Shown here: positions 53,902 through 61,440 of the stretch, piece by piece | How the letters are laid out: every line of letters starts with the position of its first letter | How positions within the stretch are numbered: position 1 is the first letter of the stretch | Assembly (NCBI GenBank): GCA_934229385.1 | Contig: CAKQDH010000002.1 | Span: 1 to 64,000 of the forward strand | Direction of reading: 5' to 3' | Origin: an uncultured Oenococcus sp. | GTDB lineage: Bacteria; Bacillota; Bacilli; Lactobacillales; Lactobacillaceae | DNA length: 64,000 nucleotides | Notes under the pieces: generated by a model | Seen by the model: only the letters and a program-made list of their open reading frames with translations | Databases searched by the model: none | Told to the model about the DNA's origin: nothing | Position numbers and translations under genes: made by a program

Positions 53902-55020
53902 TTAATTTGGTTTTCTTTTTGAAAACTTCCATTTTAAATAAGAATAAATAAACGGGTCTAAATCACCATTCATTACACTTTCTGTATTACCAGTTTCATA
54001 TCCTGTTCGTAAATCTTTAACCATGCGATAGGGCTGAAAAACATAAGAACGAATTTGGGAACCCCAAGCCCCCTCTAATTTTATTCCTTCTATTTTTGCA
54101 CGTTCTTGTTCTCTTTTATTTTCTTCTCTTTCATATAATTTAGCCCTTAGCATTTTCATAGCTATATCCCGATTTCCATACTGGGTTCTTTCTACTTGAG
54201 AAGAAACAACAATTCCTGTAGGCAAATGGGTAAGTCTAACAGCTGTAGATACCTTATTTACATTTTGACCGCCAGCACCACCGGAACGGTAAACATCCAT
54301 TTTAACATCGTGGGGATTTATTTTTATTTGTATTTCATCATTATTAAGTTCAGGCATAATATCTACAGAAACAAAAGAGGTATGCCTTCTTCCCGCTGAA
54401 TCAAAGGGGCTGATGCGTACAAAACGATGAACTCCTTTTTCACTGCGCAAAAGACCATAAGCATTTCTTCCAATAACCCTTAAAGTTACAGCATCAAGAC
54501 CAGCAACTTCAGCCGCTTCATAATCCATTAATTTTGCTTTAAAATTATGAGATTGGGCCCACCGTGTATACATTCTATACAAATTTCCGGCCCAATCAGA
54601 AGATTCGGTCCCTCCTTCTCCAGGATGAATTTCTAAAATAGCATTATTTCTGTCATATTTCCCATTTAATAATTGCGTAAGATTATAATTTTCTAAAGAT
54701 TTTTTTGTATTATTTATTTTTTTATCTAACTCTGTGTGGAGTCCTGGATCATCTTCTTCTTTTAAAAGATCTAAAATTGTTTTTAAATCTTGAACTTTCT
54801 TTTTTAAATTAATAAATGAATCACGACGGGTTTTCATATCATTCGTTTGATCAATTATTTTCTGAGCAGCTTTATTATCATCCCAAAAATCAGGGTGTAG
54901 CATTTTATTTTCATTTTCTGCAATTCTTTCATCTAATTCTTTAAGATCTAAAGCCTGCCTAAAACCTTCTAATTGGGTGACCATATTATTAATTATTTTT
55001 TTTCCTTTAGATAGTTCCAT
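53902..55020 (-). CDS. prfB: Peptide chain release factor 2, no programmed frameshift
   Basis: 372 residues in one uninterrupted frame. RF2 recognises UGA and UAA. The GGQ hydrolysis motif ([15 protein letters not shown]) and the SPF stop-codon tripeptide ([14 protein letters not shown]) are present. Most bacterial prfB genes contain an in-frame UGA at about codon 25 that requires a +1 shift. Here the region FRQALDLKE is read straight through (GCTTTAGATCTT), with no UGA, so feedback control of RF2 by frameshifting is lost. Confidence 0.97.
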
Positions 55021-55596
55021 AAACGATTATTCCCCCCTTTTAAAAAATAAAGAAAATTTTTTAACCTCTTTTATATTCATATAAAAAATCATTAAAAAAA
55101 ACTAAATATACCAGCTCCCCTACCCTGCAGGGGTTTTACAATATTATTTTAAATTAAAGAAATAAAATAAGTAAAGACTAAGGAGCTGCTAATAATCATT
55201 GTTGTAAACAGAAATATCCTTTCAGGTACAAAGAAATACTTAAGCTAATGTATAGCCATTATAATATTTACTTTGGCTCTCTTAGTGACATTAAAGATAT
55301 AATATTTTACACAGAATAAACTAATCCAAATATTCTTAACTTTTTAATTATTTTTATATGAATCCAAAAAACTTAATTTAATATTAAATAAACTTCTTTT
55401 CATTTACTTTTTTAAACAAAAAAATGCTAAATTATTTTAAGAATTTAAAAAAATATGATTAAAATTTTAGTAAATTTAAGAGTTTTACACTACTAATTAA
55501 TTTAATAGAATAACTAAAAATAATAATATGCAAACTATAATATTAAATTCAAATTATTTTTTATACCAAATTTTTACAATCCGCTATTTAAAAAAA
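55021..55596. other. Intergenic gap with a G/C-rich structured patch
   Basis: About 575 bp, no gene. A patch at roughly 55110-55195 stands out: CCCCT/AGGGG (palindromic core CCTGCAGG) and a longer-range CAGCTCC/GGAGCTG pair about 75 bp apart. It may be a small RNA or terminator. No promoter was identified. Confidence 0.4.
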
Positions 55597-55684
55597 TGGA
55601 TGGAGAGAGATTCGAACTCTCGCGCCGAATACACGACCTATCGGTTTTCTAGACCGACCCCTTCAGCCACTTGGGTATCCATCC
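55597..55684 (-). tRNA. tRNA-Ser (anticodon AGA)
   Basis: 88 nt, class II. Acceptor stem GGATGGA/TCCATCC (7 bp), D arm CCCAAGTGGCTGAAGG of serine type, anticodon stem TCGGT/ACCGA, loop CTAGAAA giving anticodon AGA (55648-55650), long serine-type variable arm, T arm GAGAG-TTCGAAT-CTCTC. Discriminator base is A, and CCA is not encoded (T-run follows). Bacterial serine tRNAs for UCN usually have GGA or TGA anticodons; AGA implies A34, which would need conversion to inosine to read several codons. Confidence 0.93.
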
Positions 55685-56225
55685 AGCTTAATAAGCACAT
55701 TCATTATTCTAACATAATTATTTCGTGTTAAAACGAGATTCATAATTGTTTTAAAAAATAATATCGCTTGGTTTAAATAAAAAGGATTTATATTTATTAA
55801 GTAAAATTATAAAATTTTAATAAATAATATCCTCATGATCTGTAACACAATAATTAAGTTCGTTTATTCTTATTTTTAATTTTAATATATTAAAATATGC
55901 TATTAAAAATGCTTTGAAAAAAACTTTATTACACTTATGATGCTCAATTTAACTATTTTAAATATAGAATTCTAAGCAAATCTAACCCAAAATTTAAATT
56001 GTATTCAATTATTCTTCTTGGGAATATATAAATACAATTTATAAATTTTTAACATTATTATTTATCTCTTGAGTTTTCGCTTACATTTTTAATTAATTCA
56101 ATGAAAAAACTTTTGGCCTCTTTAGCCATCCTATTTATTACTTAATATAAGAAATGGTGCCTTCTTAATTTAAGTTTAAGATTGAACAACCTTAAAGATA
56201 TTTAAAAATTTAAACTTTAAAAATA
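55685..56225. other. A/T-rich gap upstream of tRNA-Ser
   Basis: About 540 bp with no gene. Holds the tRNA promoter region (a TAGAAT lies about 30 bp upstream of the tRNA) and a weak terminator (56104-56128) for the glycosylase gene. Confidence 0.5.
56104..56128 (-). terminator. Weak terminator after the UDG-family gene
   Basis: On the minus strand TGGC-TAAAGAG-GCCA followed by AAAG and a T6 run. A short stem, about 100 bp beyond the stop. Confidence 0.4.
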
Positions 56226-57529: not shown

Positions 57530-60040
57530 TTAGTTACTTTTATTTTGAAGTTTTACTATTTGTTTACTATTCTTCCTATTTTTATTCCCTTTATAAATAT
57601 AAAGCTTAATTTTCTTATTTTTAACTCCAATAGTAACTGAATCTCCGGATTTAATTCTGCCGCTTAAAAGAGCATCAGAAATCTTATCTTCTACTGTGTT
57701 TTGAAAAGCACGGCGTAAAGGACGAGCACCATATTCAGGATCATAACCCTTATTAGCAACAAGATTGCTAGCTGCACTACTTATTTTAATATTAATTCCC
57801 TTTTCAGCAACACGCTGTAAAACATCCTTACTTATCAAGCGAACAATTTTATTAAGCTCATATCTTTTAAGAGAATGAAAAATAATGATTTCATCAATAC
57901 GATTAAGAAATTCTGGACGGAAATGTTCTTTCAGAGCACCATTAATCTCTTCAGACATCGCCTTATAATTATCTTGAGGTTCGACAGCTCCAAAACCGAC
58001 GTGTTTATTATCACGTAATCTAGTCGCTCCTAAATTGGAAGTCATGATAATAATAGTGTTTCTAAAATCAACTCTTCTTCCCTTAGAATCCGTTAAATAC
58101 CCATCATCAAAAACTTGCAACATTAAATTGAAAATGTCTGGATGGGCTTTTTCTGCTTCGTCAAGTAAAACAACAGAATAAGGATGTTTACGAACTCTCT
58201 CAGTTAATTGGCCACCTTCATCATAACCTACATAACCGGGAGCTGAACCTATTAACCTTGAAGAAGAATAAGATTGCTGATATTCTGACATATCAATTCT
58301 TATAATATTATCTTCAGAATCAAACATGGCTTCAGCAAGAGCTTTAGCAAGTTCTGTTTTGCCGACACCGGTAGGACCAAGAAACATAAAAGTACCAATT
58401 GGACGGTTAGGATCCTTTAAACCAGACCTTGCACGCCTAATAGCCCTTGAAACTGCAGTTATAGCTTCTTCTTGTCCAATAATCCTACGATGAAGTATTC
58501 TTTCTAAATCGAGAAGTCTTTCTGACTCACTTTTATTTAGTTGCCTTACGGGGATACCCGTTTGTTGCCCAATAACATCAGCAATATCTTCAGGACCCAC
58601 AGTTAAGCTATATCTATTCTTTTTATTTGCATTATTTCCATTTATTAATGTATTAGTGTTAATAACTGCAAGTTCTTTTTTTGTTTTAACTTCTTGCTTC
58701 CTTATTTTAGAAGCTCTATCAAAATCTCCATTTGAGATAGATTGGTCTAGTTTTTCACTAAAATCTGATAATTTCTTCCCCAAATTAAGTTTTTTATCTT
58801 CTGGTTGAACAGAGTCTATTCTCAATTTGGCTGATGCTTCATCCATTAAATCAATTGCTTTATCAGGTAAATAGCGATCTGTTATATACCTTGAACTTAA
58901 TTCTACAGCAGACCAAATTGCCTTATCAGAAATATTAACGTGATGATGTTCTTCATAACGAGGACGAAGACCCTTTAATATTTTTACTGAAACATTTTTA
59001 TTTGGTTCATCCACAACAACTCTTGCAAAACGTCTTTCTAGAGCCTCATCTGATTCAATATGCTTCTGATATTCATCAAAAGTTGTTGCACCTATTGTCT
59101 GTAATTCTCCTCGAGCTAAAGCAGGCTTTAATAAATTCGAAGCATCTAAAGCTCCTTCTGCTCCTCCAGCACCAATAAGTGTATGAAGTTCATCAATAAA
59201 TAAAATCACATGACCGTCTTCATTAATTTCATTAATGATTTTTTTTAAACGATCTTCAAATTCTCCTCTATACTTAGTACCAGCTATTAATGCCCCCATA
59301 TCTAAAGCCATTAAACGTTTATTAGATAAATCAAAAGGTACTTCACCGTCAACAATTTTTTTGGCTAGTCCTTCTGCAATAGCTGTTTTTCCAACACCGG
59401 CTTCACCAATTAAAACAGGATTATTCTTAGTTCTTCTACTTAAAATTTGAATAACTCGATGTATTTCTTTTTCACGTCCCACTACTGGATCAATTTCATT
59501 ATTTTTAGCTAAAGAAGTTAAATCCCGTGACATATTGTTTAAAGTGGGAGTCCCGGCAGAATTACTTTTTCTATTTCGAGCAATTCTATTTCGATTTGGA
59601 TTAACACCTATTTTGTTATATATAGATTGGATCAAATCTTGAAGTCTAACGTCTAAACTTACCAAAATTCGAGAACTTAAAATAGATTCATCACTTAATA
59701 AAGCTAATAGAAGGTGCACCGTTTCAATTTGTTTTGAACCCAGACTTTGTGCTTCTAAAGCAGCATTTTTTAAAATTTCTTGGGCTTTTGGAGAATAAGC
59801 CAAAAAACCAGAATTAACTTTATGATGAGTTCCATACCCTGTGAATTGCTCAATTTCATTTTTAACATCTTGATCCGAAACATTATAATCCCGCAAAATC
59901 TTACTTGCGAGACCATCTTTTTCAAGCGCTAAAGCTAAAAGTAAATGTTCTGAACCCACAATTTCATGTTTAAAATATTTTGCTTGTTCTTGAGCAAGAA
60001 TAAGAACGTTTTTTGCATTTGGACTGTATTGATTATTCAT
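57530..60040 (-). CDS. clpC: Clp protease ATPase ClpC
   Basis: 836 residues. N-terminal Clp repeats (about 5-145), D1 with [11 protein letters not shown] linker (around 430-460), D2 with GPTGVGKT, and VGFG before the C-terminal part for ClpP binding. Unfoldase for ClpP, and quality control of heat-damaged proteins. Follows ctsR by 2 bp. McsA and McsB genes, which sit between ctsR and clpC in Bacillus, are absent, as usual in Lactobacillales. Confidence 0.97.
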
Positions 60041-60516: not shown

Positions 60517-60946
60517 AATAAATCATTCCCTAATTATAAACTACTTCTCTCTACTACTTACCTCTATTATAGATTGATTTTATAATAAAATCTAATTATG
60601 ATAACTAATAAAATAATTTATTTTAAAATTTATATCTACATTTAATTTATTTATTTTATTAATTTTTTAAATTTTTTGCAAAAAAATAGTAATTTTTATG
60701 CAATTTAAATTAAAAAAATTATCTTTTTTAAATTTTAAATATTCAAAATTTCATTAATCATCCATTAATTATTTATTTAAGCTTTTATTTTAAAGATCAG
60801 GTTAAGAATAAATTATTCAATTAAATAAACTTTTTTAAAGAAGAAAAAAATATATTAAAAGTTTATAGTCAGTTTTCTTACCCAAAAGGACCCTTTTTTA
60901 TTTTATTAAATATTAAAAGGGTTCAATAAAAATTCTTAAATAAAAA
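60517..60946. other. ctsR upstream region and tmRNA downstream region
   Basis: About 430 bp, no gene. Near 60890-60922 an ACCCTTTT/AAAAGGGT inverted repeat with an A/T loop of 17 may end the tmRNA. No heptad CtsR site was found ahead of ctsR. Confidence 0.5.
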
Positions 60947-61303
60947 TGGAGTAGATGGGAGTCGGACCCATGTCCAAGTTATCCAATCATATAAATTTCT
61001 ACACCCGTAGTCAGCAAAAGAAATTCGCTGCTAAAAAAGTTGCTAACTTCTCAATTAACAGCTAGTTCAATTTAGTTTCACCTAATAAATCTTGAACAAA
61101 TTCATTAAGCTGATCCACTCTTATAAAACCTTAATGCTACCGTGGAAAATAACAAAAAGATTAGCTTCTTACAACTACTTTAGGCAGCTGCAAGTGCATA
61201 AGATTTTTGATTATTTTTTGCAGTTAAATTCTGCAGCTTTTTACCCAGCTATGGGAGGCGCAATTTATATTTGTAATAACCTGTCGAATTCCGGAACTAC
61301 CCC
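60947..61303 (-). ncRNA. ssrA: tmRNA (ssrA)
   Basis: 357 nt. The 5' GGGGTAG pairs with CTACTCC at the 3' end (one G-U), and the T-arm-like part reads GGGTCCGACTCCCA. The tag frame (61180-61221, minus) starts at GCA and translates AKNNQKSYALAAA then TAA: 13 codons, with an extra Ala compared with the usual ...ALAA ending. CCA is not encoded. A likely promoter (TTAGCA, 17 bp, TATAAT) lies in the short space shared with the divergent tRNA-Glu. It frees stalled ribosomes and marks products for Clp proteolysis. Confidence 0.96.
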
Positions 61304-61368: not shown

Positions 61369-61440
61369 GGCTCTATGGTCAAAAGGTTAAGACGTCGCGT
61401 TCTCATCGCGGAATTATGGGTTCGATTCCCATTGGAGCTA
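61369..61440 (+). tRNA. tRNA-Glu (anticodon CTC)
   Basis: 72 nt. Acceptor GGCTCTA/TGGAGCT with G1-U72 and one more G-U, D arm with GGTCAAAAGGTTAAGAC, anticodon stem TCGCG/CGCGG, loop TTCTCAT giving anticodon CTC (61402-61404), T arm ATGGG-TTCGATT-CCCAT. Discriminator A; CCA not encoded. Most low-GC Firmicutes read both Glu codons with a TTC anticodon; CTC is a GAG-only supplement. A -10-like TAAAAT lies 17 bp ahead. Confidence 0.93.

Follow-up and report, generated by a model that had tools for sequence, protein, structure and literature searches.

How UCU and UCC are read by a bacterium whose serine tRNA carries the anticodon AGA, and whether its A34 is converted to inosine, is the question raised by a tRNA gene of an uncultured Oenococcus sp. 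The gene occupies positions 55597–55684 on the minus strand of a stretch of 64,000 nucleotides (contig CAKQDH010000002.1), which is termed the window. A first-pass annotation had recognized a tRNA-Ser(AGA) at this place, omitting the strand. It had rightly described A34 as rare outside tRNA-Arg and linked its expansion to Firmicutes. For decoding, it offered two possibilities, acceptance of the tRNA by TadA or a reading of UCU only. An A34 tRNA-Ser(AGA) of this kind is already described in O. oeni; the original work is reportedly that of Rafels-Ybern et al. from 2018 and 2019.

The annotation of the gene itself held. ARAGORN called a complete tRNA-Ser, and the Rfam family RF00005 matched the same positions on the minus strand with 56.6 bits (E 1.5e-9). 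The anticodon A34-G35-A36 lies at 55648–55650, read from 55650 to 55648. Its loop, CTAGAAA, is enclosed by perfect 5-bp stems (TCGGT/ACCGA). The molecule shows the cloverleaf, the long variable arm and the pairs G1-C72 and G2-C71 of a type II tRNA-Ser; base 73 is A in place of the discriminator G73 of the E. coli rule, and the gene lacks an encoded CCA. When 11 serine tRNAs were aligned, 98.9% of the cells were paired on a cloverleaf that was drawn by hand, variable arm included, on these same sequences. Shuffled alignments yielded a mean of 77.4%, and 0 of 500 reached 98.9%. Changes on both sides occurred in 19 of the 25 pairs. A chance hairpin is ruled out by the Rfam match, the pairing test and the occurrence in relatives. 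The single base by which the gene differs from tRNA-Ser(AGA) of O. oeni and other Oenococcus genomes changes a U-G pair of the variable arm into U-U; all remaining pairs are intact, and the anticodon arm is identical to that of O. oeni. A sequencing error at A34 is very unlikely, because the base is common to five Oenococcus genomes with tRNAs identical in 87 of 88 bases. The locus is a true, conserved serine tRNA gene, and it is probably functional.

Two neighbouring genes on the minus strand place the host. The downstream neighbour is prfB (53902–55020; Pfam PCRF and RF-1), encoding release factor RF-2, and clpC (57530–60040, assigned by Pfam) forms the upstream flank of a conserved block. 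The ClpC of the window is 77–78% identical to those of five Oenococcus genomes. Its RF-2 shares 71–74% identity with the same five genomes of the genus and 65–66% with the two others, G065 and G066. The ClpC tree places the window, which sits on a long branch (0.32), within the Oenococcus clade (support 100/100), while the position in the RF-2 tree (branch length 0.4) is not resolved. The GC content of the window is 0.302, compared with 0.381–0.415 in the four of five close relatives measured; G066 has 0.324. Judged from these sequences, the window comes from a divergent, AT-rich bacterium of the Oenococcus lineage. The tRNA is nearly frozen although RF-2 and ClpC lie on long branches, which argues for selection and function.

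The order clpC, tRNA-Ser(AGA), prfB on one strand is shared by the window, O. kitaharae (G002) and three further genomes (G031, G063, G064). In O. oeni (G001), the tRNA and prfB are located on a common contig and strand, and clpC on a different contig. The block is much shorter in the window, since the spacings in the four relatives are far longer: 1.8 kb against 6.5–12.1 kb between clpC and the tRNA, and 0.6 kb against 11.9–28.8 kb between the tRNA and prfB. The flanks of the tRNA gene in the window (55021–55596 and 55686–56225) each comprise more than 500 bases without an ORF of at least 80 aa.

Some features of the neighbourhood are recorded apart from the tRNA. The prfB of the window is a single reading frame without a UGA frameshift site at its start. 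The RF-2 proteins of O. oeni and G064 likewise align from residue 1, and prfB of G063 retains the site AGGGGGT..CTTTGAC. The autoregulatory frameshift seems to be lost in part of the Oenococcus clade. A tmRNA with the tag AKNNQKSYALAAA is encoded at 60944–61303 on the minus strand and adjoins a tRNA-Glu(CTC) at 61369–61440. A scan of viral contigs with the CtsR of the window found no relative.

The distribution of tRNA-Ser(AGA) was surveyed within the family and beyond. Five of seven genomes of the genus Oenococcus (G001, G002, G031, G063, G064) carry it, each with 87 of 88 bases as in the window. The basal G066 has tRNA-Ser(GGA), and the fragmentary G065 has neither AGA nor GGA, GCU being the sole serine tRNA seen. 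On the strength of the identity and the gene order, the window gene is regarded as the orthologue of the Oenococcus A34 tRNA-Ser(AGA). A pattern scan of Lactobacillaceae found the AGA pattern in 19 of 397 genomes. Ten of these possess a real tRNA-Ser(AGA), namely the five of Oenococcus and five others (G021, G045, G118, G220, G366); the matches in the remaining 9 were not called as tRNA by ARAGORN. In a sample of the class, a stricter AGA pattern, which itself misses the Oenococcus form, matched 2 of 398 genomes. One match (L327) is no tRNA. The other (L328, positions 1501–1558, in the Bacilli genome G558) is the truncated 3′ half of an AGA serine tRNA, with an intact tRNA-Ser(UGA) upstream of it; it seems to be the remnant of a decayed copy. 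A degenerate serine-like tRNA was observed in G021 (L329, 124–215, minus strand; 59 bits), which also carries a tRNA-Ser(AGA). It has an acceptor stem like that of a UGA gene and no readable anticodon.

The serine anticodons of the ten carriers are the same throughout: AGA, UGA, GCU and CGA. G066 has GGA, UGA, GCU and CGA, and lacks AGA. No tRNA-Ser(GGA) was found in any of the ten, with the limit that a strongly diverged GGA gene could escape the search. In O. oeni and O. kitaharae, GGA is absent from sets of 43 tRNA genes. The serine sets of the other eight carriers were derived from a model search (150 candidates scored per genome, loci for 30 matches each) combined with pattern scans, the CGA gene of G366 coming from a pattern scan. 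As a control, the serine model detected the ordinary GGA genes of Lactobacillaceae in 3 of 3 cases tested, with 64–71 bits. The matches to the model of at least 60 bits that were left aside are the CGA gene of G366 and an 81-base match in G118, which scored like a tRNA-Tyr there. The other odd-sized matches that were followed up in G063, G064 and G031 (L334, L341, L342) are not tRNAs. The same applies to nine loose matches to a GGA pattern in eight carriers (none in G001 and G064); this pattern is too loose for counting GGA genes across the family, as it matched 347 of 397 genomes.

The supposition of the first-pass annotation that tRNA-Ser(GGA) might be missing is therefore borne out in the O. 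oeni and O. kitaharae sets and matches the searches of the eight further carriers. Its companion, a missing tRNA-Ser(UGA), fails, UGA being present in the relatives. Since GGA was not found in the ten carriers while the basal G066 has it beside prfB, the A34 serine tRNA appears to fill the GGA slot, and GGA is presumably absent from the window organism itself. O. oeni is reported to have four A34 tRNAs in all, those for Arg, Leu, Thr and Ser (PMC8072771); the tRNA set of this species agrees with that count.

Codon use was compared between UCC and other C-ending codons, counted in mechanically called ORFs of 150 aa or more. Among the UCN codons of the window genes, UCU is the most frequent (486 of 896). 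The share of UCC in UCU plus UCC is 64/550 (0.116). The corresponding C share is 0.120 (186/1548; Fisher p 0.88) in the Ala, Pro and Val boxes, whose label as U34-only boxes is verified only for O. oeni and O. kitaharae, and 0.127 (479/3757; p 0.49) in two-codon boxes. An avoidance of UCC is not seen in the window; its frequency matches that of the other C-ending codons. Among the relatives, the UCC share lies above Ala/Pro/Val in O. oeni (272/684, p 0.001) and G064 (p 0.006), level with it in G063, and slightly below it in G031 (p 0.034) and the GGA-bearing G066 (p 0.026). The relatives show no uniform trend that would point to difficulty in decoding UCC.

With UCC in normal use, the codon has to be read by A34 itself, through A34-C wobble, or by tRNA-Ser(UGA). 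A34-C reading is plausible because the unmodified A34 of tRNA-Arg serves CGC in vivo in Bacillus subtilis lacking yaaJ, where frameshifting is reported to increase at CGC and to be highest at CGA (PMC10454642). A reading of UCC by tRNA-Ser(UGA) is plausible because boxes without G34 or A34 tRNAs work in O. oeni: Ala and Pro have U34 and C34, and Val has U34 alone. The same anticodons were found for these boxes in O. kitaharae.

The preferred interpretation, held with good confidence, is that of a functional tRNA-Ser(AGA) of the Oenococcus lineage which has replaced tRNA-Ser(GGA) as reader of UCU, with A34 most likely unmodified. Charged with serine, it would take the place of tRNA-Ser(GGA) and read UCU through a Watson-Crick pair with A34. 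UCC would fall to A34-C wobble, to a tRNA-Ser(UGA) with modified U34, or to both. Inosine formation by the TadA of the lineage, yielding a tRNA for UCU, UCC and UCA, would also fit the normal use of UCC. A match to TadA was obtained in 15 of 15 genomes. The 14 proteins read (the match in G065 was left unread) contain the TadA motifs HAE and PCxxC. With TadA present in relatives, loss of the enzyme gives no argument against editing. The proteins seen are those of relatives, and the window lineage is divergent in the ClpC tree. Moreover, tRNA-Leu(AAG) is reportedly edited in O. oeni and Streptococcus pyogenes, so the specificity of TadA can widen. Against editing, two of the four A34 tRNAs of O. 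oeni are described as modified (PMC11066159), and in another report I34 is present in tRNA-Arg and tRNA-Leu and not in tRNA-Thr and tRNA-Ser (PMC8072771). An unmodified A34 is the best inference for the window, because the O. oeni counterpart with the same anticodon arm is the one reported without I34. Base 36 may matter as well: it is A here, and G36 is present in both anticodons for which editing has been reported (ACG and AAG). Inosine in the window tRNA is thus judged unlikely. Of the two possibilities named in the first-pass annotation, neither fits the O. oeni case, where a third answer is reported, an unmodified A34 (PMC8072771) combined with a normal use of UCC.

Decay of the gene, or lack of its expression, with a normal tRNA-Ser(GGA) doing the decoding, would agree with the loss of one variable-arm pair that O. 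oeni retains. It would also agree with the signals around the gene, where no terminator-like site was detected and the 8 promoter-like sites are similar in number to those of shuffled sequence (mean 5.3, sd 2.5). In favour of a functional gene, one promoter-like site (TTAACA, 17 bases, AATAAT) ends at 55703, 19 bases ahead of the first base of the tRNA at 55684. Moreover, every other pair is intact, 87 of 88 bases have been kept across a divergent lineage, and GGA was not found in the five close relatives, which makes a decayed copy very improbable. Still harder to sustain is a change of amino acid, in which A73 and the long variable arm would turn the tRNA into a leucine acceptor and UCU would partly be read as leucine. 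In E. coli, G73 acts as an antideterminant against LeuRS; serine identity is conferred mainly by the variable arm, and the importance of G73 in E. coli is moderate (PMC9976931). Given this moderate importance, G73 was not treated as defining the family. The first-pass annotation had noted the discriminator A as differing from the usual G, but the base is not special to this gene. In Oenococcus it recurs in the serine tRNAs with anticodons UGA and GCU, and G066 has it in tRNA-Ser(GGA), so that SerRS very likely accepts A73; the other Lactobacillaceae serine tRNAs read have T73 or G73. The pairs G1-C72 and G2-C71, reported as conserved in most bacterial tRNA-Ser (PMC9976931), are retained, and a leucine reading would fall on the commonest UCN codon of the window genes. 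An altered amino acid as a consequence of the missing G73 is rejected. By comparison of the sequences, the non-G discriminator is a trait of the lineage and gives no evidence for altered charging.

The origin of the AGA genes probably differs among the carriers. In G366, base 34 is the sole difference between the AGA gene and a UGA gene of the one genome; G220 shows one further change. In these two, A34 clearly arose when U34 changed to A in a copy of the UGA type. G021, G045 and G118 likewise have AGA genes with UGA-like bodies, with more differences. For Oenococcus, location favours the GGA gene as the ancestor, and sequence favours a body of the UGA type. The tRNA-Ser(GGA) of G066, immediately upstream of prfB, has a short D loop, the start GGAT and A73, all as in the window tRNA. 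The window tRNA shares 70 identities with the UGA tRNA and 64 with the GGA tRNA of G066, and in its body it agrees with the UGA tRNA found in many lactobacilli. Either the slot received a UGA-type copy, in which base 34 then changed, or remodelling affected the GGA gene itself. The AGA genes of the other carriers likely have independent origins. These five genomes represent at most four lineages, G366 and G220 being sisters in the ClpC tree. A stretch in G185 (C3:123965–124006), known from a pattern match only, resembles a tRNA-Ser(GGA) with a GCU-type body, hinting that, within the family, other serine tRNAs have supplied a new occupant of the GGA slot on more than one occasion.

The nearest known system remains the tRNA-Ser(AGA) of O. 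oeni, from which the window differs in its separate, AT-rich host lineage and the one base of the variable arm. Those of the five other Lactobacillaceae resemble it in the presence of AGA with GGA not found, and differ in their UGA-like bodies, a D loop longer by two bases and T73. The tRNA-Leu(AAG) of Streptococcus and O. oeni is likewise reported as an additional A34 tRNA beside tRNA-Arg(ACG) that replaces a G34 tRNA in Lactobacillales; in contrast, it serves the leucine box and is edited by TadA to I34 (PMC11472039, PMC13249217, PMC8072771). An unmodified A34 used in decoding, as proposed for the window, is described for tRNA-Thr of Mycoplasma, which differs in its reduced genomes and in the amino acid (PMC11066159). 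As far as seen, what is new is the divergent host lineage, the evidence from gene order, the lack of GGA in every one of the ten carriers and the origin of such genes, probably more than once, in other lactobacilli. A literature search found neither A34 serine tRNAs of lactobacilli beyond O. oeni nor their repeated origin; the latter may be contained in the 2018 and 2019 work of Rafels-Ybern et al.

In the additional A34 tRNAs of Firmicutes, bacteria offer a counterpart to the step that made eukaryotes dependent on inosine. The replacement of a G34 by an A34 serine tRNA, with UCC normally used, provides a natural test of unmodified A34 against modified U34 for reading C-ending codons. With the window, the case of O. 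oeni gains one divergent lineage, and the five other lactobacilli in which no GGA was found make the case comparative. It is tentatively proposed, with a chance somewhat short of even, that the G34 serine tRNA was lost several times in the Lactobacillaceae, the window lineage included, and replaced by a UGA-derived A34 tRNA that works without inosine as a stable reader of the pyrimidine box in free-living bacteria. If true, A34 would be a workable end state and not merely a step towards I34.
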